A stretch of 64,000 nt of DNA from Candidatus Kryptoniota bacterium (GTDB lineage Bacteria; Bacteroidota; Ignavibacteria; Kryptoniales; JAKASW01). The stretch covers positions 1 through 64,000 of the forward strand of contig JAHECO010000008.1 of the NCBI GenBank assembly GCA_024641705.1. The letters run 5' to 3'. A program made the translations under genes and the position numbers. Under the pieces are notes generated by a model, which was not told where the DNA came from, made no database searches, and saw nothing but the letters and a program-made list of their open reading frames with translations. Below are positions 17,926 to 57,594 of this stretch, in pieces (the first letter of the stretch is position 1; each line of letters opens with the position of its first letter).

Positions 17926-17957
17926 GGGGTCGGCCCTGAAGAAACCCGGAGAGATTG

Positions 17958-27780: not shown

Positions 27781-28971
27781 ATGTCATTTGAACAAGTCTG
27801 GAGATGGTTCGGTCCTAACGACCCGTACTCATTGAAAGAGACAAAGCAGACCGGCGCGACCGGGATCGTGACGGCATTGCACCAGATTCCTATCGGCGAA
27901 GCGTGGACGGCCGACGAAATAATGAAGCGGAAGAGAACCATCGAGGCGGAAGGACTCACCTGGTCCGTCACCGAAAGCGTCCCCGTGCACGAGGACATCA
28001 AGAAGCGAAACGGCAATTACAGACGCTATACCGAGAACTACAAGGAAACGCTGCGGAACCTGGCGGGATGCGGAATAGATATCGTGTGCTACAACTTCAT
28101 GCCGGTGTTCGACTGGCTGAGAACCGATCTGAAGGTCGTTTTCGGGGACGGGTCTATAACCACTAAGTTCGAGAGGAAAGCCCTTGCCGCGTTCGACATC
28201 TTCATGCTGAAGAGGAAAGGTGCAGAAGGAGACTACTCCGACGAACAAATTCGCGAGGGAAAAGCGTACTACGAGCAAATGTCTGGGGAACAGAAGGAAA
28301 CTCTTCTGCGGACGGTCCTCCTCGGTTTGCCAGGTTCACTCGAAGCGTACACGCTCGACGCGTTCAGAGAAGCGCTCGGAAAATATGACGGTATCGGTGA
28401 CGGGGAGCTCCGTGAAAATCTTTACGCGTTCATAAAGGATATTACGCCGGCCGCAGAAGAGGCCGGAGTCCTGCTCGGAATACATCCGGACGATCCCCCG
28501 TTTCCGCTTTTCGGACTGCCGAGAGTCGTTAGCTACAAGAAGGATCTCGAGCAGATACTTGCAGCAGCGGATTCTCAATCGAACGGACTCACGTTTTGCC
28601 CCGGGTCGCTCGTCGCCTCAGCGGAAAATGACGTAGTAGATATGGCGGAGTCGTTCGCGAAGAGGATCAACTTCATCCATCTGCGCAACGTCAAGCGGGA
28701 CGGCAAGGGAGGATTTGTAGAGGACAACCATCTGGACGGCGACGTCGATATGTACGGTGTGATGAAGCCGCTCGTCATCGAAAAGAACAGGCGGGCATCG
28801 CTCGGTCTCAACAGTGCAAGGATGCCGCTCCGTCCGGACCACGGACATCTGATGATACCGGATATGAACAGGACGAGTATTTACCCGGGGTACTCACTGT
28901 TCGGCAGGATGAGAGGGCTTGCAGAGCTGCGCGGCTTGGAGCTCGGCATCAGGCGATCGCTCGGGATCTAA
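27781..28971 (+). CDS. uxuA: Mannonate dehydratase
   Basis: 396 residues, the usual length for UxuA. It dehydrates D-mannonate to 2-keto-3-deoxygluconate, a key step in glucuronate catabolism, in the cytoplasm. Recognisable segments are MSFEQVWRWFGPNDP, the metal/substrate region IHPDDPPFPLFGLPR, the strand FIHLRNVKR, and the C-terminal RPDHGHLM. AGAGAG precedes the ATG. Together with the ExuT-like transporter at 37509 and the glucuronoxylan/pectin enzymes, it links uronic acid uptake to central metabolism. Confidence 0.95.
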   Translation: MSFEQVWRWFGPNDPYSLKETKQTGATGIVTALHQIPIGEAWTADEIMKRKRTIEAEGLTWSVTESVPVHEDIKKRNGNYRRYTENYKETLRNLAGCGIDIVCYNFMPVFDWLRTDLKVVFGDGSITTKFERKALAAFDIFMLKRKGAEGDYSDEQIREGKAYYEQMSGEQKETLLRTVLLGLPGSLEAYTLDAFREALGKYDGIGDGELRENLYAFIKDITPAAEEAGVLLGIHPDDPPFPLFGLPRVVSYKKDLEQILAAADSQSNGLTFCPGSLVASAENDVVDMAESFAKRINFIHLRNVKRDGKGGFVEDNHLDGDVDMYGVMKPLVIEKNRRASLGLNSARMPLRPDHGHLMIPDMNRTSIYPGYSLFGRMRGLAELRGLELGIRRSLGI

Positions 28972-37508: not shown

Positions 37509-38810
37509 TCACACCATCTCGAACTCTTCTATCTTCGGAACAAGAATGTGGATGATCAGCAGAGCAATCAGGTATACCGAGCCTGAAAGGATAAACAGGG
37601 GGATATAGCTGCCGGTGAATTGGAGGATGAATCCGGCCAGAATTGCGATCAACGAACCGCCGATCGCGCCGGCCATACCGCCGAGACCGACGACGGAAGC
37701 GACTGCTTTTTTCGGAAACATGTCGGAGACCGTCGTGAACAGGTTTGCAGACCAGCTCTGGTGGGAAGCCGCCGCAAGTCCGATCAGCAACACCGCCCAC
37801 CACTCGCTAACGGACGCGGCAAATACGATCGGCACGATCAACAGGGCGCTAAGCAGCATCACCGCTTTCCTTCCCCTGTTGATGCTCCAGCCGCGCTTGA
37901 TGAAGAATCCGGACATCCACCCGCCGCCGATGCTTCCTACGGTAACCATGGTGTAAATCACTATAAGCGGGAAACCGAGGTGAGCAAGGTCGAGATGGTA
38001 ACGCTCGTTTAGAAAACTCGGCAGCCAATAAAGATAGAACCACCAGATCGGATCGGTCAGGAACTTGCCGATGACGAACGCCCACGACTGTCTGTATTTG
38101 AGAAGCTTGAGCCACGGGATTTTCTCCGCGGGAGATTCAGGCGGGTCGCTCTGGATATATGCCACCTCTTCCTTCCTGACGCGCTTCTGTTTTTCGGGAA
38201 CTTCATAGTATATCAGCCAGAGAGTCAGCGCGATAAAACCGAGCAGGCCGGTGAAGATAAAAGCCTCGCGCCAGCTCCAGGTCAGCGTTATCCACGGCAC
38301 GAGTACCAGAGCTATAATGGTACCGACATTCGGGCCGGAATTGAACAGTCCTGTCGCGAGGGCTCTCTCCTTCTTGGGGAACCATTCCGCCGTTGCTTTC
38401 ACGGCTGCGGGAAAGTTTCCCGATTCTCCGATGCCCAGTGCGAACCTCGCGACCCCGAAACCAAATACGCTCCGCGCAAAAGCGTGCGCCACCGCGGAAA
38501 TACTCCACACAATCATCGATGCGGAGTATCCTCGTTTCGTTCCCACCCAGTCTATGAACCGGCCGACAAACAGGAGACCGATCGCATACGCAGTGGTGAA
38601 AGCAAATATGATGTAGCCGTAGTCTATCTGGTTCCACCCGATACTGTTCTGCAATACCGGCGCAAGGATGCCGAGGACAGCTCTGTCTATATAGTTTATC
38701 GTCGTCGCGAAGAACAGAAGCCCACAGACGACCCAGCGGTAATAACCTACTTTGATGTTTGACTCGGGACCCGGTCGGGTCCCATCCAAGTGCGGGATAT
38801 TATCTTCCAT
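37509..38810 (-). CDS. Hexuronate MFS transporter (ExuT-like)
   Basis: 433 residues, about 12 membrane segments, anion:cation symporter branch of the MFS. Recognisable: YYRWVVCGLLFFATTINYIDR at the start and GIGESGNFPAAVKATAEWFPKKERALATG. It should import glucuronate/galacturonate with protons. GAGGAG precedes the ATG. It is last in the minus-strand unit DUF362 - URO-D methyltransferase - ExuT (35 nt after the previous gene). It fits with uxuA and the extracellular wall-degrading enzymes. Substrate within uronates is not certain. Confidence 0.9.
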   Translation of the reverse strand: MEDNIPHLDGTRPGPESNIKVGYYRWVVCGLLFFATTINYIDRAVLGILAPVLQNSIGWNQIDYGYIIFAFTTAYAIGLLFVGRFIDWVGTKRGYSASMIVWSISAVAHAFARSVFGFGVARFALGIGESGNFPAAVKATAEWFPKKERALATGLFNSGPNVGTIIALVLVPWITLTWSWREAFIFTGLLGFIALTLWLIYYEVPEKQKRVRKEEVAYIQSDPPESPAEKIPWLKLLKYRQSWAFVIGKFLTDPIWWFYLYWLPSFLNERYHLDLAHLGFPLIVIYTMVTVGSIGGGWMSGFFIKRGWSINRGRKAVMLLSALLIVPIVFAASVSEWWAVLLIGLAAASHQSWSANLFTTVSDMFPKKAVASVVGLGGMAGAIGGSLIAILAGFILQFTGSYIPLFILSGSVYLIALLIIHILVPKIEEFEMV

Positions 38811-38845: not shown

Positions 38846-39907
38846 TCAACTAACGATGTAGCTGCGGCCGGCTCTCATGAAAGCCATTATGTTTTCCTCC
38901 GGCGTTTCCTGTGGCAGGTCGCAGCCTGTACTGAGCACGAAGTTCTGATACTTCTTCATCTTCTCAAGGAGCTCCGATACGTCATTCGCCACATCAGATG
39001 GTCCGCCGTTAAGAATGGAGCCCGTTGGATTGAGGTTCCCAATAATAATGATATCTTCGGGGAGCTGTTCGGCGACCGCAGCAACGTCGACGCCCGCCTC
39101 CGCCGAATCGAGGCTTAGCGCATCCACTCCGGATCGCGCCATCCCTTTCACAAGATGCATCGAGTTTCCGCAGATATGATAAACCGTCGAGACCCCGCTC
39201 CCGGTACAGCTCTCGCATATCCGGCGGACATAAACCGCCGAGAACTCCTCGAACTGGTCCGGCCCGAGCATTACGGCGCTCGGTTCGAGCACGCAGACTA
39301 TCTGCGCACCGGCGGCTATCATAAGACGAACGTACTGTTGTATCTTCGCCATGGCAAAACTGCAGACCTCGTGGAGCATCTCGGGTCGTGTCACCGTCGC
39401 CACGGCGGCTTCGTCGGCACCCATGAGTAGCGCCGCAAGCGTATACGGACCGGTAACGTAAGCCCCCCGCATGATAGAAGACGGAAAACCGATGCTCATA
39501 AGCTTCATCGTCTCGACATAGCTCAGGAGCCTTGCGTCGAAAGAGATGTTGATCTTCTCCGCGGCGATAAGGTCGTCCAGGCGGAATTCATCCCGCACTA
39601 CAGTTGCGGATTCATCCTTCGGAAAAACCGTATACCTTCCGATCGCGTTGGCTTCGACGGAAAGATCCATGAGTGGGAAAACGGCATCCGGCCTGAATTT
39701 TTCGGCGATGGCTTTCAACACCCGGTAATGCTCGCCATAGTTCTGCTGTGCTAGCTTCACGGAGCAGCCGGTCAGATTGAGTCCCGGGAATCCTATCAGC
39801 GGCACGACGAGCCGCCGCCTTTCCTCGTGCGCCCTTCGCACCGACGCCGGAAATGCTTTCGACTCGACGGTATCAATGCGTTCCGTGTTCCATCCATTCT
39901 CATTCAT
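38846..39907 (-). CDS. URO-D family methyltransferase (MtaA/MtbA-like)
   Basis: 353 residues, uroporphyrinogen-decarboxylase fold. Unlike true decarboxylases it has the zinc-binding pattern of corrinoid methyltransferases: His244-x-Cys246 in YHICGN and Cys329 in STGCDLPQETP. Such enzymes move methyl groups between a corrinoid protein and a thiol or substrate. It starts 8 nt after the DUF362 gene stop and is followed by the hexuronate transporter, an unusual context. Its likely corrinoid partner (50249) is 11 kb away. Function inferred; methyl donor unknown. Confidence 0.8.
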   Translation of the reverse strand: MNENGWNTERIDTVESKAFPASVRRAHEERRRLVVPLIGFPGLNLTGCSVKLAQQNYGEHYRVLKAIAEKFRPDAVFPLMDLSVEANAIGRYTVFPKDESATVVRDEFRLDDLIAAEKINISFDARLLSYVETMKLMSIGFPSSIMRGAYVTGPYTLAALLMGADEAAVATVTRPEMLHEVCSFAMAKIQQYVRLMIAAGAQIVCVLEPSAVMLGPDQFEEFSAVYVRRICESCTGSGVSTVYHICGNSMHLVKGMARSGVDALSLDSAEAGVDVAAVAEQLPEDIIIIGNLNPTGSILNGGPSDVANDVSELLEKMKKYQNFVLSTGCDLPQETPEENIMAFMRAGRSYIVS

Positions 39908-39915
39908 GCCTGCCC

Positions 39916-41298
39916 CTATTTCTCATAAATCATCTTCGTTGTCTGAGCGAATTGGCCGGACTGCATCCTGCAGAGATAGACGCCGCTCGCGAGCCCGTTG
40001 GCCGCCCAGCGAAGGGTATGACTCCCTGCCGGGACAACCCCGTCAACGAGGGTCTCGATTTCTTGCCCTGCAATGTTGTAGATCTTAATCGACACGCGTT
40101 CGGACGACGGCACGACGAAAGTAATCCTGGTCGAAGGATTGAACGGGTTGGGATAGTTCTGGCAGAGCCGGAACCCCGTCGGTCTTACCGCTTCGTATCT
40201 CGGCTTCACCGGCGTGATCAGGCTCGCTCCATCCCCGACTATCTCGATCTCGCTCATCTGGTTTGTCCCGATCCCCTTCTGGTGCAGCAGTTCGAGATAG
40301 TTGTCGCACTGACCGCCGTCCGGCAGATCGATCTTGGCCGCTTCCGGGTCGTTGCCCATGAAATATGCCGCCACGCTGTCGGTTGCCACCGGGTCTTTAC
40401 CGGCAAGGAGTACATGGTCCTCGGTCGGCGTGAATGTCGGATTCCACGTTCCCTCCCCGCCTCTCGCGTTTTTTATTCCGTCTATCACCGCCAGGTTTAC
40501 AGGACGGGCCGTGTTCAGATCGCAGATGGAGCGGGGAAGATAACTCGTCGATGGGTCGCTGCTCGTCATGTGATGGATCGCGCCCCTTCGGCCGTCGTCA
40601 CCTGTGATCGTGTAACTGTTCTTCGGAACAATCCCGACCTGATTCTTCAGCGAGCAGGTGACACCCGCCTCGTAGTGCTGTTTCATTTTCGGGATCGATA
40701 TATACACGTCGACATCCGAGAGAATCTGGTTCACCGTAATTGATGTGAAGTGGAAGCCGTTGTCCCCGACCGCCTTCTGGACAAAGCTGCTATACGGGGC
40801 TGTCTTGTTGAGGTCCACCATCTTTGCCCCCAGGCTCTGCTGGACCATAAGGTAACCGTTGTCATTGTAAGACGAATCGCTCCACAGCGACTCGACGATA
40901 TAAAGATTGCCCGGCGCGACGCCGCAATCGACGACCAGTTCACCTACGGCTCTCAACACTTCCGGATTAGTCCACATGTTATCGGGCAGGCCTCCGCCGC
41001 CAGTCAGGTTTATTTTGATCGCCACCTTGTTACCGGATTTTACCACATCGGTTATCCCCCCGATGGACTCGAAAAGATGCTGCACTTTTTGCTTCACATA
41101 GGCACGATCGTAGTTGTCGGCCTGGGTGATCGCGACCTGTGTCAGGTATGATGAGCTATTCTCCCGCCCGTATGCCAGTACCGCTGCCGACTTTATATAC
41201 GGCGCCACCAGGACGCCGGCTGCCGCGGTCCCTAGGGTCTTGAGAAATTCTCTTCTCGAATTGTTGGCTTCCCGGCCGGCATCGACATTCTTCTTCAT
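39916..41298 (-). CDS. DUF362 protein with Tat-type signal and T9SS sorting domain
   Basis: 460 residues. The start MKKNVDAGREANNSRREFLK contains a twin-arginine motif (SRREFLK) followed by a hydrophobic stretch (GTAAAGVLVAPYI). DUF362 core: about 50-330, with KVAIKINLTGGGG, LSDVDVYISIPKMKQHYEAGVTCSLKNQVG. T9SS sorting domain at the end: YPNPFNPSTRITF and SGVYLCRM. ATG 41298 is chosen; the TTG five codons earlier would leave no separate ribosome site. DUF362 proteins are of undefined role and sometimes carry iron-sulfur clusters; here no ferredoxin-type cysteine cluster is seen. First gene of the operon. Confidence 0.8.
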   Translation of the reverse strand: MKKNVDAGREANNSRREFLKTLGTAAAGVLVAPYIKSAAVLAYGRENSSSYLTQVAITQADNYDRAYVKQKVQHLFESIGGITDVVKSGNKVAIKINLTGGGGLPDNMWTNPEVLRAVGELVVDCGVAPGNLYIVESLWSDSSYNDNGYLMVQQSLGAKMVDLNKTAPYSSFVQKAVGDNGFHFTSITVNQILSDVDVYISIPKMKQHYEAGVTCSLKNQVGIVPKNSYTITGDDGRRGAIHHMTSSDPSTSYLPRSICDLNTARPVNLAVIDGIKNARGGEGTWNPTFTPTEDHVLLAGKDPVATDSVAAYFMGNDPEAAKIDLPDGGQCDNYLELLHQKGIGTNQMSEIEIVGDGASLITPVKPRYEAVRPTGFRLCQNYPNPFNPSTRITFVVPSSERVSIKIYNIAGQEIETLVDGVVPAGSHTLRWAANGLASGVYLCRMQSGQFAQTTKMIYEK

Positions 41299-41411
41299 AG
41301 CCTGCCCTTTCAATTACAGTTCCTCTGAACAAGGAGCGTACTGCTGCCCGATACGCATGACCCTGTTGCGGCGAAGCACGAAACCGCCCGTTTGACCAGT
41401 TTATAAAATAT

Positions 41412-42973: not shown

Positions 42974-44239
42974 TTACTTCGTCAGGTTCAGTATCTCGGT
43001 GCCCGCGAGTATGACGGCACCGATTCCGTGAACGTCGTTGAGAGGTGTCGGACGGTTGTAGTAGAAATTCAGGTTGTCGCCCACTCCCGTGCCCGTGCAA
43101 ACGCCTTCTATTTTTCCATCGGGACGGATCTTCGACATTACGCCCTCCCAGCCGCGTCGGGCAACGGAGGCGTAGCTCGAATCAATATAGCCCATATTGA
43201 CAGCCCGCGCTATCGCGTAAGTGAACATAGCCGAACATGAGGTCTCGAGGTAGGAATCCGGCCTGTCGAGGAGCTGATGCCACAGTCCGCTTGCATCCTG
43301 ATAACGGACAAGTCCCTCGATCTGTCTCCTGAGCAGCGGAATCAGACTTTGGCGCCGCCGATAGAACATGGGCAGACGGTCCAACAGGTCAACCTGCGCC
43401 ATTAACATCCACCCGTTGGCGCGACCCCAGAATGCCACTCCATTGGTTCTGGTATCGGAGTACCAGCAATGATACATCAACCCCTTTTTCTCATCGAAGA
43501 GATGCTCGTTGAAATTGATGACCTGCTGCGCGGCATCCATTAAATAGCACATGTTGCGTCTCATAACCCCGAGGCGAGCGAGAAACGATACGCTCATGTA
43601 AAGGTCGTCGGCCCAGAGCGTCCACTTTATGGGAAAAGAGCGGACAAGCGTCCCGTCTGCGAGACGGGCTTGACTGTTCATGATGTGGCCGGCGGCCGAG
43701 TCGATGTATGCGCGGTATCTAGCCTGCTGATCGTGCCAGTAGATCTCGATCAGGCTCGCCCCCATCGCGCCGCAGTCGTCCAGCTCCTTCATAACAATCA
43801 TCTGCCCCAACGGATATGTCCACTTGTCCTCTCCATGATATCTATCATCGAAGTACTTGTAGCTGTCGAAATCGAAGGCGATGCTTCGATTGACGAAATT
43901 TGTGTACGAGGTGTCGTGGAGCTGTTCCCCCAGCCTGAGCATGGCGATATTCAGCACCCCGTTCCAGTAACGCCAGTCGTTGTAGGGGCTTTCGGGCCGC
44001 AGTTGCGCGTCAGCCGGAGCATCCGACGGCGACACGTAAGAAGCCCCAGTCTTCTCGTCGACGAACCGGAAAGTCGCGCTCCGAAGAACCGAGTCGGCGA
44101 CCAGCCGCACTTTTCTCTCCGTCACGGATGGACTGTCCCGACCCGGCTGCGCGCGGACGGCACCGGCACTTAGTAACAGAATTGCCGCCAGCGGAAATGA
44201 AGACCGGATCGTCGGATAGAAGTAATACTTTCTCTGCAT
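42974..44239 (-). CDS. GH105 unsaturated uronyl hydrolase (YteR-like)
   Basis: 421 residues. Signal peptide (ending VRAQPG), then an (alpha/alpha)6-barrel family resembling unsaturated rhamnogalacturonyl hydrolases. The catalytic Asp is in WTLWADDLYMSV (Asp211/Asp212), with supporting segments RSFPIKW and GVAFWGRANGWMLMA. It should remove the unsaturated uronic acid from oligosaccharides made by pectin or rhamnogalacturonan lyases, giving uronates for the ExuT-like uptake. GGGAGG sits 8 nt before the ATG. Next to the GH9-related gene (78 nt). Confidence 0.9.
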   Translation of the reverse strand: MQRKYYFYPTIRSSFPLAAILLLSAGAVRAQPGRDSPSVTERKVRLVADSVLRSATFRFVDEKTGASYVSPSDAPADAQLRPESPYNDWRYWNGVLNIAMLRLGEQLHDTSYTNFVNRSIAFDFDSYKYFDDRYHGEDKWTYPLGQMIVMKELDDCGAMGASLIEIYWHDQQARYRAYIDSAAGHIMNSQARLADGTLVRSFPIKWTLWADDLYMSVSFLARLGVMRRNMCYLMDAAQQVINFNEHLFDEKKGLMYHCWYSDTRTNGVAFWGRANGWMLMAQVDLLDRLPMFYRRRQSLIPLLRRQIEGLVRYQDASGLWHQLLDRPDSYLETSCSAMFTYAIARAVNMGYIDSSYASVARRGWEGVMSKIRPDGKIEGVCTGTGVGDNLNFYYNRPTPLNDVHGIGAVILAGTEILNLTK

Positions 44240-44455: not shown

Positions 44456-46033
44456 CTACTTGAACCTGAACCAATCGAAGTCGGCATAACCTTCACCGGA
44501 AGTAATATTGGGATCCACGCTGAAAAGCCCAACTTTCGCTCCGATCCAGACTCCCGGCACGGCAGTGAATTCCCTCCCGATGCGGCGGAAGTTCTTGCCG
44601 TCGAAGCTGTAGGAGAATGTGCATACAGCCCCGCTGTCGACGTGTACTCTGAAGAAACATGAACTCCTCTTCGTATCGACGGAATCGAATATCTGCGTCC
44701 CATCATAACCACGTTTGTATGTCCCGGTGAACATTCCGACCTGAAACCCGTTCTTCACGGAGGTGAGAGCGACGAAAGCCCATTCCCTTCCCATGACCAC
44801 GAGCCCGCTCCTCTCCCCCGTTTGATTCGGATGAAACGCTATCTTCGTCGTGACTGTGAAAGACGGCGCGGGAAACTTCTGCAGGAGCAGATTGGGCACA
44901 AACCACAGGTTGCCGCCCTGGGTCAGATTCTGCACCGTATAGAGTCTCAGGTGACCCGTATTTTCGGTCAGTGAGTACCATTGTTTCTGAGGATTGGCCG
45001 ACCACTGCCACTGGAGTCCAAGCTTGTTCGAATTGAACTCGTCCGTTGTCTGGGGAACGCACACGCGATAAGAGTGTCCCACATCGGGCTTCCTCCACTC
45101 GGTCACCGGCTCGCCGACGCCGCTGTGGCTGGAATCAACACCGATTACCGGCCATCCGTCTTTCCATGTAGCCGGTTCGAGATAGTCTATTCTACCGTAT
45201 GCGCCGCGGTCGCTGAAATGAATGAACCACCACTCTCCCGATTTCAATTCGACAATACCGCCCTGATGCGGACCGTTAATGTTTGTGTTCCCCTGGTGCA
45301 TCACGATCCTAGATTGGTACGGACCGTAGATTTTTTTCGAACGGAGAACGGTCTGCCAGCCGTGCGATACTCCTCCCGCCGGCGAGAAGATGTAATAATA
45401 TCCGTTCATCTTCAGCATCTTCGGCCCCTCGATGGTGGGCTGCGTGGAGTCGTCGTGAAAGATCACCCTGCCGTTGTCCAGCAGCCTCATGCCGTCTCTG
45501 CTCATCCTGTGGAGGTACAGTGTACCCGCGCGCAGCTTGCTCCTCACGAGGTAGGCATTGCCGTCGCTGTCCCAGAACGGGCACGGGTCCTCCCACATTT
45601 CCACCTTCGCCACCTGGTGGAGTTTCCACTCGCCCGCCGGATTCCTCGTTGTCGCGACGAAGAGCCCTTCGTGCGGCGTGCAAAAGTAGACATAGAACAA
45701 TCCGTCGTGATAGCGGATGGACGGCGCCCAAGACCCTTCTCCGTGCGCCGGCTTGTCGAATTTCTCAAATGGAAGCCTCTGGTAGACGTGACCGATGATC
45801 CGCCAATTTACAAGGTCCCTGGAGTGAAGCACCGGAATCCCCGGCATGCAATTGAAGCTCGATGCCACGAGATAGAAATCGTCGCCGACCCTGATGACGT
45901 CGGGATCGGAGTAGTCTGCGTATAGGATTGGATTCTTATACCTGCCATTGCCGAGATCCGGGACCCACGCCTGCGGATGAAGGTTTCCGACGGTAACCAG
46001 TGAAACAATTAAAAGCATCAGAACTCTGATCAT
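44456..46033 (-). CDS. GH43 family glycoside hydrolase
   Basis: 525 residues. Signal peptide (about 1-21), five-bladed beta-propeller with the catalytic Asp in YADYSDPDVIRVG, a second Asp in EDPCPFWDSDG, and the acid Glu in PTIEGPKML. A C-terminal lectin-like domain follows (about 330-525, NLTQGGNLWFVPN to YADFDWFRFK). GH43 members cleave beta-xylosides or alpha-L-arabinofuranosides; subfamily 12 is the nearest I can name. AAGGGA precedes the ATG. In this region it would trim arabinoxylan or xylan. Confidence 0.9.
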   Translation of the reverse strand: MIRVLMLLIVSLVTVGNLHPQAWVPDLGNGRYKNPILYADYSDPDVIRVGDDFYLVASSFNCMPGIPVLHSRDLVNWRIIGHVYQRLPFEKFDKPAHGEGSWAPSIRYHDGLFYVYFCTPHEGLFVATTRNPAGEWKLHQVAKVEMWEDPCPFWDSDGNAYLVRSKLRAGTLYLHRMSRDGMRLLDNGRVIFHDDSTQPTIEGPKMLKMNGYYYIFSPAGGVSHGWQTVLRSKKIYGPYQSRIVMHQGNTNINGPHQGGIVELKSGEWWFIHFSDRGAYGRIDYLEPATWKDGWPVIGVDSSHSGVGEPVTEWRKPDVGHSYRVCVPQTTDEFNSNKLGLQWQWSANPQKQWYSLTENTGHLRLYTVQNLTQGGNLWFVPNLLLQKFPAPSFTVTTKIAFHPNQTGERSGLVVMGREWAFVALTSVKNGFQVGMFTGTYKRGYDGTQIFDSVDTKRSSCFFRVHVDSGAVCTFSYSFDGKNFRRIGREFTAVPGVWIGAKVGLFSVDPNITSGEGYADFDWFRFK

Positions 46034-47435: not shown

Positions 47436-48467
47436 TCACCGGGGAGATCTAACGGCCCGTACGAAAGCAGCGATGTTTTCGGTCTTGACTCCCGGCGGCA
47501 TTCCGCCGCCGCACGACATTATCACCTTGGTCTTGTCCTTCAGTGAGCTCACAAGTTCACGTGTCACTCTCGTTACGTCTTCCGGAGTTCCGCTTGCGAG
47601 CACGTCGCGCGGCGGAATGTTTCCGACGAGCGCCACCTTTCCCTGCGTCAGCTCTTTCAGCTCGTTCAGCGTGACGTCAAAACCCATGTTGAAGAGGTTC
47701 ACGCCCATTTCGGGAAGGAGCGGGGCCGACTCCCTGCACGGCGCGTCGTTATGAAGGAATTTCACGGAGACGTTCGCGTCGAACAGTTCCTTGAAATACG
47801 GGAGACCGAATGTCCGGAATTCTTCCTGGCCCATGAAGCCGATGATATCGTCCAGAAGGAATATACCGTCGATGGAAGGGAATGTCTCCATCTGCAGGTG
47901 GAGCCAATCCTTTATGTATGCGGTTATCTTCTTCATGAGAGATTCCACCTTGTCCGGCTGCATCATCATCATCGTCAGAAATTCAGTCGAACCCATGAGG
48001 TAACTCGCAACGTTGAGCGGGCCGCGCGCGACCGCAAAGCGTATCTTGTGTCCGGTCGCCTCTATCTTGGGCTGCGCTAGCTTCAACCTGTTCAGCATAA
48101 ACGGCAGGAGGCCGTCGGTCCTCGGGTCGGGTGAAGGCAAGTTGTCGATGTCGTCTGCGGAGTTAATCACTTTATGTGCGAACGGGAACTCATCCGGCGG
48201 AAATGTACCGCGCGCGCCGAATCCCGACGGCTCCGTGCACATTCCGAACTCGGACCAGAATCCCGGCAGAAACATGACATCCGGAAAGTCGTTGATCGCC
48301 TTCAGGTTCGCCTTGAGCCACAGCTCGTCGCTGGAAAAATAGTCGAGTATCTTGACCCCGTACCAGTTCGGAAGCCAGGGGCTGTCGATGATGAAACCGA
48401 TCGGCAACGGCTCAAAGATCTCGCCTTTGATGGTTCCCTTAAGAATTTCCCATTGTTGGTCTGTCAT
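47436..48467 (-). CDS. URO-D family methyltransferase-like protein
   Basis: 343 residues with the uroporphyrinogen-decarboxylase fold (GPLNVASYLMGSTEFL; VALVGNIPPRDVLASG). In place of the H-x-C zinc pattern it has His239-x-Asp241 (FLHNDAPC) with Cys244 and Cys319 (IMSCGGGMPPG). It lies downstream of a reactivase-like gene, a homocysteine methyltransferase and a corrinoid protein, so it is most likely the substrate-side methyltransferase of that set. Methyl donor not identifiable. GGGTGA precedes the ATG. Confidence 0.78.
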   Translation of the reverse strand: MTDQQWEILKGTIKGEIFEPLPIGFIIDSPWLPNWYGVKILDYFSSDELWLKANLKAINDFPDVMFLPGFWSEFGMCTEPSGFGARGTFPPDEFPFAHKVINSADDIDNLPSPDPRTDGLLPFMLNRLKLAQPKIEATGHKIRFAVARGPLNVASYLMGSTEFLTMMMMQPDKVESLMKKITAYIKDWLHLQMETFPSIDGIFLLDDIIGFMGQEEFRTFGLPYFKELFDANVSVKFLHNDAPCRESAPLLPEMGVNLFNMGFDVTLNELKELTQGKVALVGNIPPRDVLASGTPEDVTRVTRELVSSLKDKTKVIMSCGGGMPPGVKTENIAAFVRAVRSPR

Positions 48468-48520
48468 GTTTCACCCTTAGGTCTCTCGTTCATGGAAACT
48501 GGAACATCAAAGAGAACTAA

Positions 48521-48594
48521 GCCACAGAGACACACAGGCACAGAGGGTTGTTCTGTTATTTCTACTCTCCGTGTCTCTGTGTCTCCCGTGGTGA
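48521..48594. repeat. CACAGAGA-unit inverted repeat
   Basis: The left arm (48521-48547) consists of about 8-nt CACAGAGA-like units. The right arm (48562-48594) carries TCTCTGTG-like units, the reverse complement. It separates the methyltransferase start from the reactivation gene's stop. Confidence 0.6.
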
Positions 48595-48627
48595 TATTCT
48601 CTTCTGAGGGATTCTCCCTGCTGCGTC

Positions 48628-49371
48628 CTACTCAATTTTCACTTGGCCCTTCGGCAATCTGGTTGCCCTGTATGTGCAGTCCTTCACTCCGCACCTGTCG
48701 CAGATATAGTCTTTCCATTCCACCTTTTCGCCCACGCCGATCACTCCGCTCACGGATTTGATCGGAGACATGAGCGCCGACTCGGAGAGCGTGACACCGC
48801 AGAAATTCTCCGGGAACATTGAGAAGAGAAGATGCTGCTCGGAGACAGACCAGTTGCAGTATCCCGGGCTGTACCTGTTCGTGACGTTCAGCCCGCGATC
48901 CCGCATTCGCTCCGCTATATGATCGTGGAGCACGTTTGTAACCGTCTCTGCGGCAACGGAGGCGGTAACGTCGGCGATATACCCGAGCGCAGGATCGCCG
49001 TGTTTCAGAAGATGCCTGGACCAGTTTTCCATGTCGGGCCCGATCGTGCAGACAAAAAGTGCAGCCTTCGATGCTTTCTTGAGCTGGCCGGCTACGATCT
49101 TGTCCATTGCGAAAAACTTTCCGCCGACGATGAGTCCGTCGTGACGGCCCGCCGGTTTCTCCATATCAAGGACCCTATACCCGGCCCTGATCTCGCAGCG
49201 TTTCGGCAACTGCAGGATCGCTTCATCTATCATCGCGGCGAAGTGAACCGGGATTTCGCCGTCCGAATACCCCAGTGTCAGTTCGACTTCGCCTCTCTCG
49301 AGCGAAAGGTCGGTGAAATCAATCGCGACTTCGAAAACGTCTTTCTCTATTTCAACCTCGCGCAGACTCAA
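48628..49371 (-). CDS. MetH-type B12 reactivation (AdoMet-binding) domain protein
   Basis: 247 residues from a TTG at 49371 that overlaps the upstream TGA stop (TTGA), with AAAGGAG 10 nt before it. It matches the stand-alone activation domain of cobalamin-dependent methionine synthase: the AdoMet-binding motif is RYSPGYCNWSVSEQ (Arg166-Tyr171). The C-terminus carries a three-cysteine pattern (CDRCGVKDC). It should reductively remethylate inactive cob(II)alamin of the corrinoid protein using AdoMet. Overlaps the homocysteine methyltransferase gene by 4 nt. Confidence 0.85.
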   Translation of the reverse strand: MSLREVEIEKDVFEVAIDFTDLSLERGEVELTLGYSDGEIPVHFAAMIDEAILQLPKRCEIRAGYRVLDMEKPAGRHDGLIVGGKFFAMDKIVAGQLKKASKAALFVCTIGPDMENWSRHLLKHGDPALGYIADVTASVAAETVTNVLHDHIAERMRDRGLNVTNRYSPGYCNWSVSEQHLLFSMFPENFCGVTLSESALMSPIKSVSGVIGVGEKVEWKDYICDRCGVKDCTYRATRLPKGQVKIE

Positions 49372-50252
49372 AGCGATTTCAACTCCTTTACCAGTGCGCG
49401 TATATGTTCGGGCGTGGTGCCGCAGCAGCCTCCGATGATATTTGCACCGCATTTCGCCAGCTCACGCGCCTTTGCGGCGACCGCCTGCGGCGTTTCCTTG
49501 TAGACAAGCTTCCCGTCTTCGATCATCGGCAATCCAGCATTCGCGTGGACGAGAACCGGAGTATGTGGATCCGCCTTCCTGATTTCCTTCACAACATCTA
49601 TCATCTGGTCGAAACCGTTGCCGCAATTCGCGCCGATGACCGAAGCCCCCGCTTCCTTCACGGCTCTTGCCATCTCGGCGGGAGAAACACCCATCATAGT
49701 CCGGTACTTGCCGGTAACGGTCCTGTCGAAGGTGAAAGTGCAGATTACTTCAAGTCCAGTCGCTTCCTTCGCCGCCCGGATTGCAATTTCAGCCTCGTCG
49801 GTCGCCGACATGGTTTCTACAAGTAGCGCGTCGGCTCCCCCCTTCTTGAGGGCTGCGGCCTGGATGCGGAAGCCGTCATACACAGCCTCTTCCGTCACCT
49901 GTCCCATCATAAGTATTTCGCCCGTCGGTCCGATGGAGCCGAGCACGAAACGGTCTATCCCTGCGGCCTTCCTTGATATCGCAGCCGCAGCCTCATTGAG
50001 TTCCCCGGCCCTGTCCTGCAGTCCGTAATGCGCAAGCTTGATCGGACTTCCGCCGAAGCTGTTCGTCAGGATCATGTCCGCTCCGGCATCGACATAACTC
50101 TTTGCTATCGCCATGACATCGTCAGGGTGCGTCACGTTCCAAAGCTCAGGGCAATCCCCCGGCTCGAGTCCCCGCTCCTGGAGCATCGTCCCCCAGGCCC
50201 CGTCCGACACCAGGATCTTTCCATCTTTCAGCGCGTTCAGAATCGATCTCAT
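49368..50252 (-). CDS. Homocysteine S-methyltransferase (MetH/BHMT-type domain)
   Basis: 294 residues. Zinc-dependent homocysteine methyltransferase fold with the three Cys ligands visible: Cys210 (GANCGNG) and Cys276-Cys277 (GGCCGTT). N-terminal SDGAWGTMLQERG and LTNSFGGSP are typical. It should take a methyl group from the corrinoid protein and form methionine. It overlaps the corrinoid gene (4 nt, ATGA) and the reactivation gene, indicating tight translational coupling. No folate-binding domain is attached or encoded in the window. Confidence 0.92.
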   Translation of the reverse strand: MRSILNALKDGKILVSDGAWGTMLQERGLEPGDCPELWNVTHPDDVMAIAKSYVDAGADMILTNSFGGSPIKLAHYGLQDRAGELNEAAAAISRKAAGIDRFVLGSIGPTGEILMMGQVTEEAVYDGFRIQAAALKKGGADALLVETMSATDEAEIAIRAAKEATGLEVICTFTFDRTVTGKYRTMMGVSPAEMARAVKEAGASVIGANCGNGFDQMIDVVKEIRKADPHTPVLVHANAGLPMIEDGKLVYKETPQAVAAKARELAKCGANIIGGCCGTTPEHIRALVKELKSL

Positions 50253-50917
50253 TTCTGCCGTCCCGCATTAAGAAAGGCCACGGCCCCCTGAGGATTAGGC
50301 GCGTACCCGTCCGCCCCCATCTGGTCGGCCGCTCTCTGAGTGAGCGGCGCTCCTCCGACGATCACACGAATGGAGGGGAACTGCGTTTTGATTTCCTGGA
50401 CGGTCTTGGACATATTGGCCATCGTCGTCGTGAGAAGCGCGCTGAGGCCGACTGTACATTCCGGGCCTTGCCTGATCGCGTCGAGGAACTTCGCAGATTT
50501 GACGTCGACGCCGAGATCGACGACCTCCCAACCGTTTCCTTCGATGACCATAGCCACGAGGTTCTTCCCGATGTCGTGAAGGTCGCCGGCCACTGTGCCG
50601 ATCACGAACCGGCCCTTCGCCTTAACAGTGCCCGTCTGGAAATACGGCTTCAGGTGTGCCATGACGGCGTTCATCGCCTTCGCGGCCATGAGGAGCTCGG
50701 GAACGAACACTTCGTTCCGGCTGAACCTGTCGCCGATCCTCTTCATGCCGGCGTTGCATGCCTGCAGGATCTCTTCCGGTCCGACACCCGAGTCGAGGGC
50801 CTGCCGGGTCAACTCGTCGGTTCCGTCCTGGCCCTGCATGTCCTTAGGGTACGGAGAGGACTTGTTCACCTTCCCGCGCTCAATGCACTCGCCGATTTTT
50901 CCAACCAGTTCTTCCAT
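50249..50917 (-). CDS. Corrinoid (B12-binding) methyltransferase subunit
   Basis: 222 residues. N-terminal cap helices (about 45-92, ILQACNAGMKRIGDRFSRNEVFVPELLMAA), then a Rossmann-like cobalamin domain with the base-off motif DLHDIG (Asp112, His114, Gly117), GLSALLTTTM and VGGAPLT. It carries methyl groups between methyltransferases, as in MtbC/MtaC or the MetH B12 domain. GGAAGAG lies 7 nt before the ATG. First gene of the four-gene unit ending at 47436. Confidence 0.92.
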   Translation of the reverse strand: MEELVGKIGECIERGKVNKSSPYPKDMQGQDGTDELTRQALDSGVGPEEILQACNAGMKRIGDRFSRNEVFVPELLMAAKAMNAVMAHLKPYFQTGTVKAKGRFVIGTVAGDLHDIGKNLVAMVIEGNGWEVVDLGVDVKSAKFLDAIRQGPECTVGLSALLTTTMANMSKTVQEIKTQFPSIRVIVGGAPLTQRAADQMGADGYAPNPQGAVAFLNAGRQK

Positions 50918-51014: not shown

Positions 51015-52871
51015 TCAAGGTACCGGAGGAAACGCGCCGACATACAGGCTGCCTGTCCCGGTGCGACCGATAAGTTTCGCGATCCCCTCCGGAAGCAGCG
51101 TGCCTGACTTGAAGCCCGGAAAGTTTATTAACAATTGATAGTTGTTCAGCTCGGAGCTTTTGAACAGGGGGCCGCCATAGTCAGCGTAGAAACGGCCGTT
51201 CGCCTCAAAACCGGGATCTAACCTTCGCAAACCGTCCAGTGAGTCAAATCCCAATTGGCATCTCTCGTTCTGTGCCGGACTCCACAGAATCAGAGGGTAA
51301 GGAGTATTCTCCACGCCGCGAACATAGACGTTATGATCCATCTCGCTGAGCTCCGGCTTCGTGAGCTGACCGCAAAGGGGGGCAGGCTGCCAGACAAACA
51401 GGAGAGGCCTTGTGAAATTCTCATCGCCGGTAAGCAGATTGTTGACAAACACGTGACCTTCGCGCTTATCGACATCCGGGCCTGTGCTGGAATGCCAGCC
51501 GAATCGGTCGCCCGCAGGAGTCCGCCCGTTCCGGCCGATGCAAGCCATACTATTGACAAAAGTGTTCTGGTATATCTTCGCGTCGGAACTATTCAGTATC
51601 ATCATACCATGATCGCAATTCACGAACACGTTCCCCGCAACCACGGCGCCCTTCGAGATCTCGAAGAAGAACCCGTTGTCGCTCGGCCAGAGCTGACCGG
51701 TCGGGGTTGTCTTGCCGACATGGCCGACTCCTTCGACCCAGTTATCGATGAACACGCCGTCCACTTCACCGACATCGTACCACACCCCGTTTGAATTCGG
51801 GAGATCGATTATCAGGTTATCGCGACATACCGCGTGGTGGCACTGGTTGAATATCTTGACGGCTGCGGGATAATACCCGGTAATGTCATCGATATTATTG
51901 CGGGTGAAAATATTTCCCTCCAGCAAAATGTCGTTTGACGCTATTACATAGACGCCTTCCGTTCTCGTATCGCTTATTTTGCAGTGCCGGATGGTCAGAT
52001 GATCTCCCCGGAAATAGCCTGCGACGCGCGAGCAGTAGGAAATGGTGCAATTTTCCAGCGTTGTGCCGACCACGTCCTTGCCGTACTTCGATTCATCGGT
52101 CACTCCCACCGGTTCTGTCCCCTCCACTTCAAGCGCGCGGTAAGCATACTGCGTGAATGTAATTCCCCGGATGGTGTATCCTTTGCGGTCCGATTTCTTG
52201 CCGTGGCATTCGCCGGTCGTCCTGATTATCGCAGCATCGAAGGCTGTGATCTCGACAAGTCTGTTCGTCGGGTCAGCGCCGATGTACACGAGTCCGGCGT
52301 TGTAATCGATGTAATACGTATTTGAATCCACGGCTCCTTCCCAGCCGACCGATCGCAGGTATCTTCCGTCAACGAAAACCATGTCGTTGTTGAATCTCCA
52401 TACCGGAGTCTTCCTCCCTTCGATGCTGCTCTGCCACCAGTCTGCGGGTTTGGAGGGGAAAAGATGGGTCCACTTTGTAACCCAAACGCCGTTGTGGAGA
52501 TTCTTCCAGTTTGTCGCAACATATGTTCCTTTCAGCACCGGCTGCTCATCCCGGTACGGCTGTATCGTAATTCCCTGGTTCAGCTCCAGATCGCCGGTCC
52601 TGTAAATGCCGCCGCGCATAACGATCTCGTCACCGGTTTTCACACGCGCGATGGCGGCTTCCAGCGTTGTGGGCTCGCTCAAGGACTCGCCAGATTGGGT
52701 CGAGTCTCCGCCGGCCGCGACGTAATATATTCGGCCGGATACTGCCGGCAGTTCATATGTCTCACGAACCGGACCGTACGGGCCGCCGGATGGCTGGGCC
52801 GCGGCCGTCGCCATCCAGGAGCATGAGCTGAAAAATGTTAAGATTATATACAGCCGCACTGTTCTTTTCAT
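51015..52871 (-). CDS. Secreted right-handed beta-helix protein
   Basis: 618 residues. Signal peptide (ending TAAAQPSG). Rungs of a right-handed parallel beta-helix (about 95-500; for example NCTISYCSRVAGYF, GVYVIASNDILLEGNIF, GAVVAGNVFVNCDHGMMIL) resemble pectate lyase/polygalacturonase-like folds. No T9SS domain at the C-terminus (ends VGAFPPVP). I cannot point to catalytic residues with confidence, so it may be a lyase, a hydrolase or a binding protein. AAGGTAATAAG before the ATG. It follows the next beta-helix gene with a 70-nt gap. Confidence 0.75.
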   Translation of the reverse strand: MKRTVRLYIILTFFSSCSWMATAAAQPSGGPYGPVRETYELPAVSGRIYYVAAGGDSTQSGESLSEPTTLEAAIARVKTGDEIVMRGGIYRTGDLELNQGITIQPYRDEQPVLKGTYVATNWKNLHNGVWVTKWTHLFPSKPADWWQSSIEGRKTPVWRFNNDMVFVDGRYLRSVGWEGAVDSNTYYIDYNAGLVYIGADPTNRLVEITAFDAAIIRTTGECHGKKSDRKGYTIRGITFTQYAYRALEVEGTEPVGVTDESKYGKDVVGTTLENCTISYCSRVAGYFRGDHLTIRHCKISDTRTEGVYVIASNDILLEGNIFTRNNIDDITGYYPAAVKIFNQCHHAVCRDNLIIDLPNSNGVWYDVGEVDGVFIDNWVEGVGHVGKTTPTGQLWPSDNGFFFEISKGAVVAGNVFVNCDHGMMILNSSDAKIYQNTFVNSMACIGRNGRTPAGDRFGWHSSTGPDVDKREGHVFVNNLLTGDENFTRPLLFVWQPAPLCGQLTKPELSEMDHNVYVRGVENTPYPLILWSPAQNERCQLGFDSLDGLRRLDPGFEANGRFYADYGGPLFKSSELNNYQLLINFPGFKSGTLLPEGIAKLIGRTGTGSLYVGAFPPVP

Positions 52872-54553: not shown

Positions 54554-55795
54554 TCAGTTCGACACAAAAGTCGTCACGCTCGAAGCATCCAATGTCGCTG
54601 TGAAACTCCCGTTCGACACGGCAATATTGTTCCCCTGAGCGCAGTTCTTGCCGCTTGAGGTAACGTAGGGAACAAAAGTAGATGCGGCCACGCCCGGTAT
54701 CGTAAATTCCTGGCCGATTGAAGTCGAGCCCATATTCAAAGCGACTATGACAACCTTGGAACCGCTCTTGTATGCGGTCACGAAAATATTTGACTGCGGA
54801 TTTGCCGTGGCACTGACTCTGTAGAAGCCCGGTCGAACAAACTTCGCAAATTGAGACATGACGTATCCTCTCTTCGTGACGACGCCGTTCTCGTTTATCG
54901 GCCCATAATATCTCACTATGTACCACCATATATAAGCGCTCATTTGACACGTCATACAATCGTTGATGCTTTTCGCCGTTCCCAGTACTGCGCTCCAGGT
55001 GGTGTCGAGCACAAGATACTCCGTCATCCACACTTCTTTCCCCTTACTGATGGCAAGCGGGTAAGGTGTAGGGCTCACCCCGTAAATATGCCCACCTATG
55101 AAGGCAATATTCGCCGCGGCATCGGGATCGTTCAGCGAGAGATCGGACAACGAATGATCGAAGCCCGACGCTTCAGGCATGAAGACCGGGACCCCAACCG
55201 ACGCGGCGTTGTTCTTCATGAAGTTGAGAAAATTGCCCGCGGTCCAGTAACACGATTCATAACTTACGTTGACGTCCGGTTCATTCTGCACCGAGACCGC
55301 ATACAAGGGAACGCCGCTGGCCGACATGGTATCGGCAAATGACTTCAGGTGAGCCGCGTACGCCGCGTAAGCGCCGGTATCGAGAACGCCGCGGACAACG
55401 TTGTCGTTGCTCTTCATCCACGCCGGAGGCGTCCAGGGAGTCGCAATGATCGTCACCCCCATCGAAGACGCCAACTTTGCCGAAGGGACGTTGATGCCGA
55501 ATTGTGTCGAGTCCGGCGGGATGCGCAGGCGCATTATCGTGAACCCAAGTTGACCCGGGCCGGTGCCAAAAGCCGTCTGAATTTCCCCGGCTGTCATGTC
55601 CGGCCGCCAGCCGACGATGTTGGCGGCGCCGAATCCTCTTATGATCTGCTGCGTGCTGTCCAGGTAAATAGTCGCGTAACCCGTGGGGGGAGGGCCGTTA
55701 ATCGAGCTCTTCTTCGAGCAGCCCGACGCCAACAATCCAAAAGCCAATACAATAGCAACCGGTAACGACCAGGAGATGCGAAAGTATCCTTTCAT
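54554..55795 (-). CDS. GH30 endo-xylanase lipoprotein
   Basis: 413 residues. Lipoprotein signal with lipobox LASGC (Cys26). TIM barrel of GH30: acid/base Glu172 in SVQNEPDV and nucleophile Glu259 in EVWMTEYLV, plus the C-terminal beta-sandwich. Closest in layout to the glucuronoxylanase subfamily (GH30_8), which cuts xylan next to a 4-O-methylglucuronate branch; the subfamily is inference. ATG 55795 is set by AAGGAG 8 nt upstream, rather than the GTG at 55804. Just 12 nt after the GH10 gene, in the same unit. Confidence 0.88.
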   Translation of the reverse strand: MKGYFRISWSLPVAIVLAFGLLASGCSKKSSINGPPPTGYATIYLDSTQQIIRGFGAANIVGWRPDMTAGEIQTAFGTGPGQLGFTIMRLRIPPDSTQFGINVPSAKLASSMGVTIIATPWTPPAWMKSNDNVVRGVLDTGAYAAYAAHLKSFADTMSASGVPLYAVSVQNEPDVNVSYESCYWTAGNFLNFMKNNAASVGVPVFMPEASGFDHSLSDLSLNDPDAAANIAFIGGHIYGVSPTPYPLAISKGKEVWMTEYLVLDTTWSAVLGTAKSINDCMTCQMSAYIWWYIVRYYGPINENGVVTKRGYVMSQFAKFVRPGFYRVSATANPQSNIFVTAYKSGSKVVIVALNMGSTSIGQEFTIPGVAASTFVPYVTSSGKNCAQGNNIAVSNGSFTATLDASSVTTFVSN

Positions 55796-55807
55796 ACGGC
55801 ACACTCC

Positions 55808-57421
55808 TTATTTGACCAGGACAAGTTTCTTGACCGATGTAAATGTCCCGGCGGTGATCCGATAGAAGTATATACCACTCGATAACCCAGCCGCGTTGAA
55901 TGTGGTTCCGTGATATCCTGCGTTCTGCCTCGCGTCCACAACCGTCGCGACTTCTCTCCCCAGGACATCGTAGATTTTCAAGATAACGTGGCTGACCTTC
56001 GGGAGTTGATATCTGATGACAGTTGTCGGGTTGAACGGGTTGGGATAGTTCTGATACAGGACAAAATTACGCGGGATTCCCTCTGATTCGTCTATTCCCA
56101 TCTCCACTGTATCTCCTGTCGTAATGCTCACCGGCGCGGAGAAATCACCGGTGTCGCTCGCGTTCAGTGCAGCCACGTGCCAGTAATACTTGGTACTCGC
56201 CTGGAGTGGGGCGAGACGCAGAAGAGTGTCTGCCACCGTCGAGTCCACCATGACGTCCCTGAACAAGTCGTCGGTGGCAACCTGTAGTCGATACGAAGAT
56301 GCCGCGACCGACGGATGCCATATCATAAGCGGATTGCGCGGTACGCTGCTCGTGCCGAGAGGGGACACCACTACCGGCTGAAGCAAGTACTTAGTAAGAT
56401 ACGTGCGCAGCCACTGAAGGGCCGGGCGCTCAGACCCGTCTATTCGAACCAGGTAAGCGTTGGCTTTCCACGTATCCCCTTGAATGTAGCCCCACAGCGT
56501 CATGCCTTTCACCCCCCGGTTCTCCCAGAAAAGAGGGTAATAGATTTTATAGTTCGCGAGCTGGGTGCTGTCATCCGGCTCGTTGATGTCAAATTCTGAA
56601 ATGTAGATCGGCAACCCGGTAGCTGAAGTCAGCCTGTCAAGATTGTATTTCAGTGTGCTCACCGGGTAAGAATACACTGGGGTCAGGCCCTGTGCACTCT
56701 TGAACTCGAAGTAGTGCCCCTGAATCCCGATCCCATCGATCAACCCCCTGACTTTCAAAGTATCTATGAGAGCAATGTAGGTGTTAGTAATGCTGTTGTC
56801 CTGCAATACGTTATACTCATTGATCAGCAGCTTGACTCCGGGGGCACAGGCCTGTCTCGCCCATGTGAAGGCAGTGACGACCCAATCCCAGCCGGTCGCT
56901 CCCGAACCGCCGAGCGCCCTGATATAGTTTGCCCTGGCAGGGTTTCCGCCGCCGTCCGGAGGAGCACGCAGAGGCTCATTGACAACATCGATGAAATCCA
57001 TCAGCGGATACCGATGGCCGACGCTGTCAATCCAGGCTTTTATTGCCGCTCTTTGAGTGGCTGAGTCGAGGGAAGAAATCCAACTCGGCTGCTGCTGTCC
57101 CCAAATCAAATTGTGGTCCTTGAAAGGAATATCGTTGGTCAAAGCAAAATTGTAAAGAGCGTCAAGGCCCGACCAGTTGTAGGTCCCCCGTGTGCCCTCG
57201 ACACTTCCCCACTTGCCGTCATTTCCCGGCGTGACCTGATTCCAATAACTGAGGTAGTTGGAGGGGATACTGTAACCCCAAGTGACCGCGTTTCCGACAA
57301 ACTTGCTCCTGCCGATCGCCAGCTGCGGAAAAGATTCGCACGGGATAAGAAACACGATGATAGGCAGTATCAGGCTTGCCGCCGGATTTCGTTCGCGACT
57401 AATTGACCGCCTGTTTGTCAT
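55808..57421 (-). CDS. GH10 endo-beta-1,4-xylanase with T9SS signal
   Basis: 537 residues. Signal peptide from MTNRRSISRERNPAASLILP. GH10 barrel: acid/base Glu149 in DFIDVVNEPL and nucleophile Glu276 in IYISEFDI, plus the KDHNLIWGQQQPSW strand. An FN3-like module follows (about 350-445), then a T9SS domain ([36 protein letters not shown]). GGGAG precedes ATG 57421; the longer frame to 57517 is rejected. Should cleave xylan on the cell surface. Confidence 0.93.
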   Translation of the reverse strand: MTNRRSISRERNPAASLILPIIVFLIPCESFPQLAIGRSKFVGNAVTWGYSIPSNYLSYWNQVTPGNDGKWGSVEGTRGTYNWSGLDALYNFALTNDIPFKDHNLIWGQQQPSWISSLDSATQRAAIKAWIDSVGHRYPLMDFIDVVNEPLRAPPDGGGNPARANYIRALGGSGATGWDWVVTAFTWARQACAPGVKLLINEYNVLQDNSITNTYIALIDTLKVRGLIDGIGIQGHYFEFKSAQGLTPVYSYPVSTLKYNLDRLTSATGLPIYISEFDINEPDDSTQLANYKIYYPLFWENRGVKGMTLWGYIQGDTWKANAYLVRIDGSERPALQWLRTYLTKYLLQPVVVSPLGTSSVPRNPLMIWHPSVAASSYRLQVATDDLFRDVMVDSTVADTLLRLAPLQASTKYYWHVAALNASDTGDFSAPVSITTGDTVEMGIDESEGIPRNFVLYQNYPNPFNPTTVIRYQLPKVSHVILKIYDVLGREVATVVDARQNAGYHGTTFNAAGLSSGIYFYRITAGTFTSVKKLVLVK

Positions 57422-57594
57422 TGTTATCTCCCTTCCATCTCCTGGTTTGACTGGACAACAAATGAACCGCCTGGCCAAAGCGTCATCCCGAACCGGAACC
57501 GAAACAGCGAGAGGCAACTCGAATTAGAGACGTCCGGTCTTCAATGGCCATACCATCTCCTGATCGTTCTTGAGGAAGAGACAGCCAGAGTAGA

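Follow-up and report, generated by a model that had tools for sequence, protein, structure and literature searches.

Why should a xylan-degrading locus carry genes for cobalamin-dependent methyl transfer and no folate module? This question is raised by a stretch of 64,000 nucleotides (positions 1 to 64,000 of contig JAHECO010000008.1, GenBank assembly GCA_024641705.1; hereafter the window) from a Candidatus Kryptoniota bacterium, in which four open reading frames (ORFs), all on the minus strand within 47436-50917, encode a corrinoid carrier (COR), a homocysteine S-methyltransferase (HCY), a stand-alone methionine-synthase-type activation domain (REACT) and a protein of the uroporphyrinogen decarboxylase family (URO-D; UROD1). 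The initial annotation had described this cassette as a four-gene cobalamin methyl-transfer set lacking a folate module, and Pfam analysis confirmed the domains and found no folate-binding domain in the four proteins; the xylan locus that it had recognised around the cassette is also real, with glycoside hydrolases (GH) of families GH30, GH10, GH43 and GH88/105 present. We consider it likely that the cassette uses cobalamin to O-demethylate 4-O-methyl-D-glucuronate (MeGlcA) set free from glucuronoxylan, or one of its early catabolic derivatives. MeGlcA is the methylated sugar acid commonly found in wood xylan, and is a major side chain of the xylan of hardwood. The identities, conserved catalytic motifs, synteny and co-occurrence described below were read directly from sequence; from them we infer the substrate, the direction of transfer, which URO-D protein acts and the identity of the acceptor.

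COR (50249..50917, minus strand, 222 aa) is composed of a B12-binding cap (PF02607, E 7e-17) and a B12-binding domain (PF02310, E 2e-25), and its DxHxxG motif is invariant in the alignment of relatives; against the profile of the glycine betaine MtgC corrinoid protein (NF047996) it scored 167.7 bits, under the curated cut-off of 370. HCY (49368..50252, minus strand, 294 aa) matches S-methyl_trans (PF02574, E 5e-75). Its Cys210, Cys276 and Cys277, which lie in the motifs NCGNG and GGCCG, are invariant in all 11 aligned sequences and are expected to be zinc ligands, and the protein is likely a methyl-corrinoid:homocysteine transferase; the proposal that homocysteine is the probable acceptor is supported. 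REACT (48628..49371, minus strand, 247 aa, TTG start codon) matches Met_synt_B12 (PF02965, E 2e-8, above the cut-off), and the solved structure nearest to it is 1j6r, annotated as methionine synthase (Thermotoga maritima TM0269). An NRYSPGY motif is conserved across its relatives, and the RYSPGY part of it presumably corresponds to the S-adenosylmethionine (SAM) site of MetH. At its C-terminus REACT has an additional CxxCxxxxC motif (Cys224, Cys227 and Cys232), invariant in 7 of 7 aligned sequences, which is possibly a metal or Fe-S site and could provide the electron for reactivation.

UROD1 (47436..48467, minus strand, 343 aa) matches URO-D (PF01208, E 7e-38). The folds nearest to its AlphaFold model, which has a confidence (pLDDT) of 83 with low confidence at residues 72-98, are the decarboxylase UroD (4wsh) and the methyltransferase MtaA (4ay7). 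The alignment places an invariant H239-N240-D241 at the position of the HxC motif of MtaA, and Cys319 is not universal; an MtaA-type zinc site is not supported for UROD1, in which HxD stands in place of HxC. Its score against TIGR01463 (MtaA/CmuA type) was 70.6 bits, under the curated cut-off of 235.4. We propose, on the basis of these features and of the genomic context, that UROD1 is a methyl-sugar-acid:corrinoid methyltransferase.

The genes lie in the order COR-HCY-REACT-UROD1. COR and HCY overlap by 4 nt (ATGA), as do HCY and REACT (TTGA). The 4-nt overlaps reported earlier thus do tie three genes (COR, HCY and REACT) together through two junctions, but UROD1 is not among them, its start being separated from REACT by 160 bp. 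The gap between REACT and UROD1 contains a strong predicted hairpin of the CACAGAGACAC type (48510..48604, bounds approximate, no strand assigned). The CACAGAGACAC/CTCTGTG hairpin resembles a dispersed repeat, and its tested 15-nt core occurs once in the window. No Rfam riboswitch match was found in the window. The gene order and the reading frames are kept in genomes of the same genus at 67-87% amino-acid identity, and therefore the cassette, judged by this conservation, is not a chance arrangement.

The comparison with relatives indicates that the system is larger than four genes, and that a second URO-D methyltransferase (UROD2) and a transporter belong with the cassette. In four same-genus loci (L035-L038) UROD2 and a transporter of the major facilitator superfamily (MFS) come after COR-HCY-REACT-UROD1, either at once or with one to a few genes intervening, and in L038 all six genes are contiguous and stand after GH10, GH30 and beta-helix genes. 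In the window, UROD2 (38846..39907, minus strand; PF01208, E 2e-50) and the MFS gene (37509..38810, minus strand) are found on the same strand 7.5 kb downstream of the cassette, past DUF362 and GH genes. UROD2 carries the MtaA-type zinc triad HxC...C, of which H244, C246 and C329 are invariant; its score against TIGR01463 was 119.8 bits, below the cut-off of 235.4. The transporter falls in the D-galactonate (DgoT-type) sugar-acid family (TIGR00893, E 2e-75, below the cut-off; DgoT structure 6e9n, E 2e-42), and we propose that it imports MeGlcA.

The occurrence of UROD1 was compared with that of the alpha-glucuronidases GH67 and GH115 in a genus sample of 13 genomes and a phylum sample of 396 genomes; since genomes share ancestry, the p-values given here overstate independence. 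UROD1 was found in 8 of the 13 genus genomes. GH67 was present in 7 of these 8 and in none of the 5 genomes without UROD1 (Fisher p=0.005), and GH115 in 6 of 8 against 0 of 5 (Fisher p=0.02). In the phylum sample, GH115 was found in 10 of 11 genomes with UROD1 and in 46 of 385 without it (p=1.5e-8), and every GH115-positive genome inside the class also has UROD1. In the genome studied here, GH67 (C2:82754) and GH115 (C2:97321) are encoded on the same contig and strand as the cassette.

A scan of named genomes yielded 554 relatives and 80 loci; the UROD1 ORF was not recovered by ORF calling in 4 of the 80, which were kept in the counts. Some of the loci analysed come from metagenome-assembled genomes that bear the name Melioribacter roseus. 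Among the 50 loci whose UROD1 shares at least 66% identity, GH115 or GH67 lies within 10 kb in 24, and some xylan or uronate gene within 10 kb in 39. Positive genomes hold one to three copies of GH115, so that such proximity would be expected by chance at an estimated 1% or so per locus. As an inner control, the 30 loci with UROD1 of 57-64% identity had GH115 or GH67 nearby in only 2 cases (Fisher p=1.4e-4 against the closer set). On a quick UROD1 tree the xylan label takes 10 changes, compared with 26.6 in shuffles, and the xylan-linked loci are distributed over no fewer than five lineages of phylum rank (Ignavibacteriota/Bacteroidota, KSB1, Calditrichota, Fibrobacterota and Fidelibacterota). 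In four loci from other families (L052, L053, L054 and L055) GH115 is located 0.2-4.2 kb from UROD1. One of them, L052, has the order GH115-GH43-COR-HCY-REACT-UROD1-UROD2 and adjoins genes for UxuA, a short-chain dehydrogenase/reductase (SDR) and xylulokinase-like and xylose-isomerase-like proteins; UxuA together with SDR is found in both L052 and L053. Methylglucuronate, which the initial annotation had offered as a donor and marked as inference, has thus gained strong comparative support and is the best candidate.

MeGlcA use would then proceed as follows. GH30, GH10 and GH43 enzymes would cut xylan, the alpha-glucuronidases GH115 and GH67 would release MeGlcA, and the DgoT-type transporter would take it up. 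UROD1, with or without the zinc-bearing UROD2, would transfer the carbon of the methyl ether to Co(I)-COR, yielding glucuronate and CH3-Co(III)-COR; HCY would pass the methyl group on to homocysteine, yielding methionine; and REACT would restore Co(II)-COR through reductive methylation with SAM. Glucuronate would enter the fructuronate-mannonate-UxuA route. The pathway through 2-keto-3-deoxygluconate and its 6-phosphate requires a free 4-OH prior to aldolase cleavage, and therefore a demethylation is expected somewhere.

With somewhat less assurance, we lean towards a wider interpretation, in which the UROD1 family, with its invariant His-Asn-Asp and no zinc motif, would comprise undescribed cobalamin-dependent methyl-sugar-acid demethylases that allow anaerobes to use the MeGlcA side chains of hardwood xylan in the absence of oxygen and pass the methyl group to homocysteine directly, with no folate step, and the constant COR-HCY-REACT part would be a plug-in acceptor whose URO-D donors vary from one glycan locus to another. 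Paralogous COR', HCY' and REACT' genes with different URO-D genes were also observed, at 6625-12353 of L042 (genome G012, contig C21) and at 16742-20000 of L040 (genome G011). One paralogous cassette adjoins a GH42-type gene and a sugar transporter, and perhaps represents such a module for other methylated substrates.

Several observations weigh against MeGlcA demethylation as the function of the cassette. A same-genus genome of 98% completeness (G005, locus L037) has the full cassette, the transporter and UxuA and no GH67 or GH115; this organism may live on free MeGlcA released by others. The 46 GH115-positive genomes of the phylum sample that lack UROD1, all of them outside the class, mean that other fates of MeGlcA must exist. 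The UROD1 orthologues of 57-64% identity in Bacteroidales (L111-L138) adjoin DUF6807, Gfo/Idh/MocA and sulfatase genes, and some orthologues in Spirochaetes adjoin a leucyl-tRNA synthetase gene; the UROD1 subfamily is therefore not restricted to xylan, and the substrate of the Bacteroidales orthologues is probably a different one. That these distant orthologues might be xylan-linked too was considered and dropped, the Pfam tallies of their neighbours giving no support. The supply of methyl groups from xylan would presumably exceed the demand for methionine, so that another sink would be needed; one possible sink for the surplus would be folate, through reversal of the pterin-binding part of the cell's own methionine synthase (MetH-N). 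Finally, an aliphatic methyl ether is harder to cleave than a phenolic one, and the nearest precedent is the activation of methanol by MtaB.

Among the other explanations, the one that survives best, and which we still regard as unlikely, is that the cassette is an accessory split methionine synthase, in which COR, HCY and REACT would receive methyl-folate from MetH-N in trans and UROD1 would be an unrelated passenger. COR, HCY and REACT are indeed the non-folate parts of MetH, and split MetH enzymes with a pterin protein encoded elsewhere are found in Phaeobacter (PMC5764234) and Ruegeria (PMC12478193). A search of the genome identified a complete folate-dependent MetH on contig C37, encoded as two ORFs that together hold all four functions, the first for the homocysteine and pterin modules (MetH-N) and the second for the B12 and activation modules, and a YitJ-type homocysteine methyltransferase/methylenetetrahydrofolate reductase outside the cassette. 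The MetH ORFs (L018, 2846-6450 of C37) overlap by 1 nt exactly at the pterin/B12 junction. The pterin ORF is thus free of a B12 domain, and MetH-N could in principle dock with COR; it is one of only two PF00809 proteins of the genome, the other being FolP-like. On the other hand, this MetH is complete and has B12 and activation domains of its own, and therefore the cassette, as far as gene content tells, is an additional system beside it; a role of the cassette as sole methionine synthase was rejected given MetH and the YitJ-type protein. The earlier description of a split methionine synthase accordingly holds for the type of its modules, which are those of methionine synthase without folate, but a role as the cell's own enzyme is not supported. 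Against a passenger role, UROD1 and cassette-type COR (at least 58% identity) track each other in the genus, this COR being present in 8 of 8 genomes with UROD1 and in 0 of 5 without it, where no match exceeds 46%; and the set is embedded in xylan or uronate loci of many lineages.

Still less probable, in our view, is that UROD1 is a decarboxylase or another uronate enzyme and that the methyl-transfer genes are merely co-localised with it. True uroporphyrinogen decarboxylases are among the best matches of UROD1 both in sequence and in fold, the HxC zinc motif of MtaA is missing, and UROD1 is often encoded without COR nearby. We had predicted beforehand that genomes with such a solo UROD1 should encode a cassette-type COR elsewhere. 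This was the case, at 53-61% identity, in 7 of 10 tested genomes of other groups; two of the remainder have a COR of just 47-49% and one has none. Even at 35% identity UROD1 still stands beside methyl-transfer genes: L058 has UROD1-COR-HCY-MetF-pterin protein, with SDR-UxuA, and L057, which adjoins GH10, encodes UROD1, a corrinoid protein, a homocysteine methyltransferase, MetF, a pterin protein and a confirmed RACo. Sets of this type could also allow oxidation of the methyl group via folate. A URO-D-fold methyltransferase that works without zinc is known, namely CdmB (PMC13222342).

A methoxylated aromatic donor, derived from ferulate or lignin and demethylated in the manner of acetogen O-demethylases, has a marginally smaller chance. 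Methoxy-aromatics are substrates of the URO-D-superfamily demethylases MtvB, OdmB and VdmB (PMC13222342), and ferulate on arabinoxylan would supply the link to xylan. The recurrent neighbours, however, are alpha-glucuronidases, UxuA, glucuronoxylanases and a DgoT-type or TRAP transporter, and in the annotated loci no gene for the catabolism of aromatics was recognised, in a search that did not specifically include feruloyl esterases. Methanol from pectin, the other donor suggested by the initial annotation, is very improbable: the genome does have an MtaA-MtaC-MtaB methanol set and a pectinesterase homologue, but the former is on another contig (C13), the cassette has no MtaB, MtaB occurs in the genus only in this genome and two without UROD1 and in no other UROD1-positive member, and strong pectinesterase matches (E<1e-50) do not discriminate (4 of 8 genomes with UROD1, 2 of 5 without). 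One gene downstream of MtaA-MtaC-MtaB (L043, 10476-17160 of C13) a core MetE-like protein (Meth_synt_2, 339 aa) is encoded, and this arrangement looks like a second folate-free route of methyl groups to homocysteine, with methanol as donor.

The remaining genes of the locus were also annotated. Upstream of the cassette, all on the minus strand, are a right-handed beta-helix protein (51015..52871; PF13229), which is the immediate upstream neighbour in L036, L038, L039 and L041 as well; a GH30 glucuronoxylanase of the XynC/XynA type (54554..55804; 1nof, E 3e-103; XynC 3gtn, E 4e-93; 371 bits against NF052681, below the cut-off); and a GH10 endo-xylanase with a type IX secretion system (T9SS) tail (55808..57517; PF00331, E 4e-56). 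The KRGY motif of the GH30 protein aligns with XynC, and we take its Arg to be the residue that binds MeGlcA in XynC-type enzymes. Downstream, on the same strand, are a GH43 beta-xylosidase (44456..46033; PF04616, PF17851), a GH88/GH105 unsaturated uronyl hydrolase (42974..44239; PF07470, E 3e-80) and a DUF362 protein with a T9SS sorting tail (39916..41313; PF04015, PF18962), whose counterpart lies between UROD1 and UROD2 in L035 and L037. The plus strand encodes the mannonate dehydratase UxuA of glucuronate catabolism (27781..28971; TIGR00695, 488 bits, above the cut-off of 199.55) and a LacI-family regulator (17955..18992); a LacI gene lies within 10 kb of 9 of the 50 closest UROD1 loci. Two sites look disrupted: the ORF at 41481-43100 matches just the CelD_N region at the N-terminus of a GH9-type protein of 838 aa in L036 and looks truncated or frameshifted, and the ORFs at 46305-46583 and 46580-47320, which overlap by 4 nt and give one beta-propeller-like reading, are possibly a frameshifted gene.

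Each part of the cassette comes from a known family, and the cassette agrees in full with none of the known systems compared. The URO-D/MtaA superfamily includes the O-demethylases MtvB, OdmB and VdmB and the chloromethane enzyme CdmB (PMC13222342). Like the cassette, the O-demethylase and CdmBCA systems consist of a URO-D-superfamily methyltransferase I, a small corrinoid protein, a second methyltransferase and a reactivation protein (PMC13222342, PMC10418091). Their second methyltransferase, however, forms methyl-folate, whereas that of the cassette is a homocysteine enzyme (PF02574); their donor is an aromatic ether or haloalkane, whereas a sugar acid is proposed here; and their activator is of the ATP-dependent RACo/Ram type instead of the SAM-type PF02965. 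A pterin-binding protein was seen in the distant L057/L058 form of the set only. The split MetH/MtgBCDE systems of Phaeobacter and Ruegeria share the separate corrinoid protein and homocysteine methyltransferase and the tie of B12 to demethylation (PMC5764234, PMC12478193), but rely on MtgB, on a partner that binds pterin and on activation like that by RamA, and the cassette has no pterin protein and no MtgB. The methionine synthase TM0268/TM0269 of T. maritima also has its activation domain as a separate gene, the nearest to REACT (1j6r), but keeps the remaining MetH modules in one protein, and REACT adds the C-terminal CxxCxxxxC. Type 1 mlp clusters likewise lack a folate methyltransferase and pair a corrinoid protein with several methyltransferases of the URO-D family (PMC10418091); they differ in having a Ram/RACE activator and a tie to methyl-sulfur or methyl-selenium compounds, where the cassette has PF02965 activation, an enzyme of PF02574 and xylan genes around it. 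The P450 that demethylates 6-O-methyl-D-galactose of porphyran is also a sugar demethylase of a polysaccharide locus (PMC10033563), but it depends on O2 and forms formaldehyde, whereas the cassette would need no oxygen and would conserve the methyl group.

In the open-access literature searched, we found no report of a B12-dependent step that demethylates MeGlcA or another methyl sugar, which is not proof of absence, and no description of an anaerobic enzyme that removes the methyl group of MeGlcA; nor did the papers searched describe the combination of a URO-D demethylase, a corrinoid protein, a homocysteine acceptor, SAM-type reactivation and a sugar-acid donor. We therefore propose the cassette as a variant of the corrinoid methyltransferase systems with a new substrate class. 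If this is true, it would fill the missing step of anaerobic MeGlcA demethylation, by a small and directly assayable set of proteins that can now be named. It would also explain why B12 methyltransferases are found in the alpha-glucuronidase loci of several uncultured lineages, and would tie the digestion of xylan in anoxic communities to methionine and SAM and to the supply of B12.

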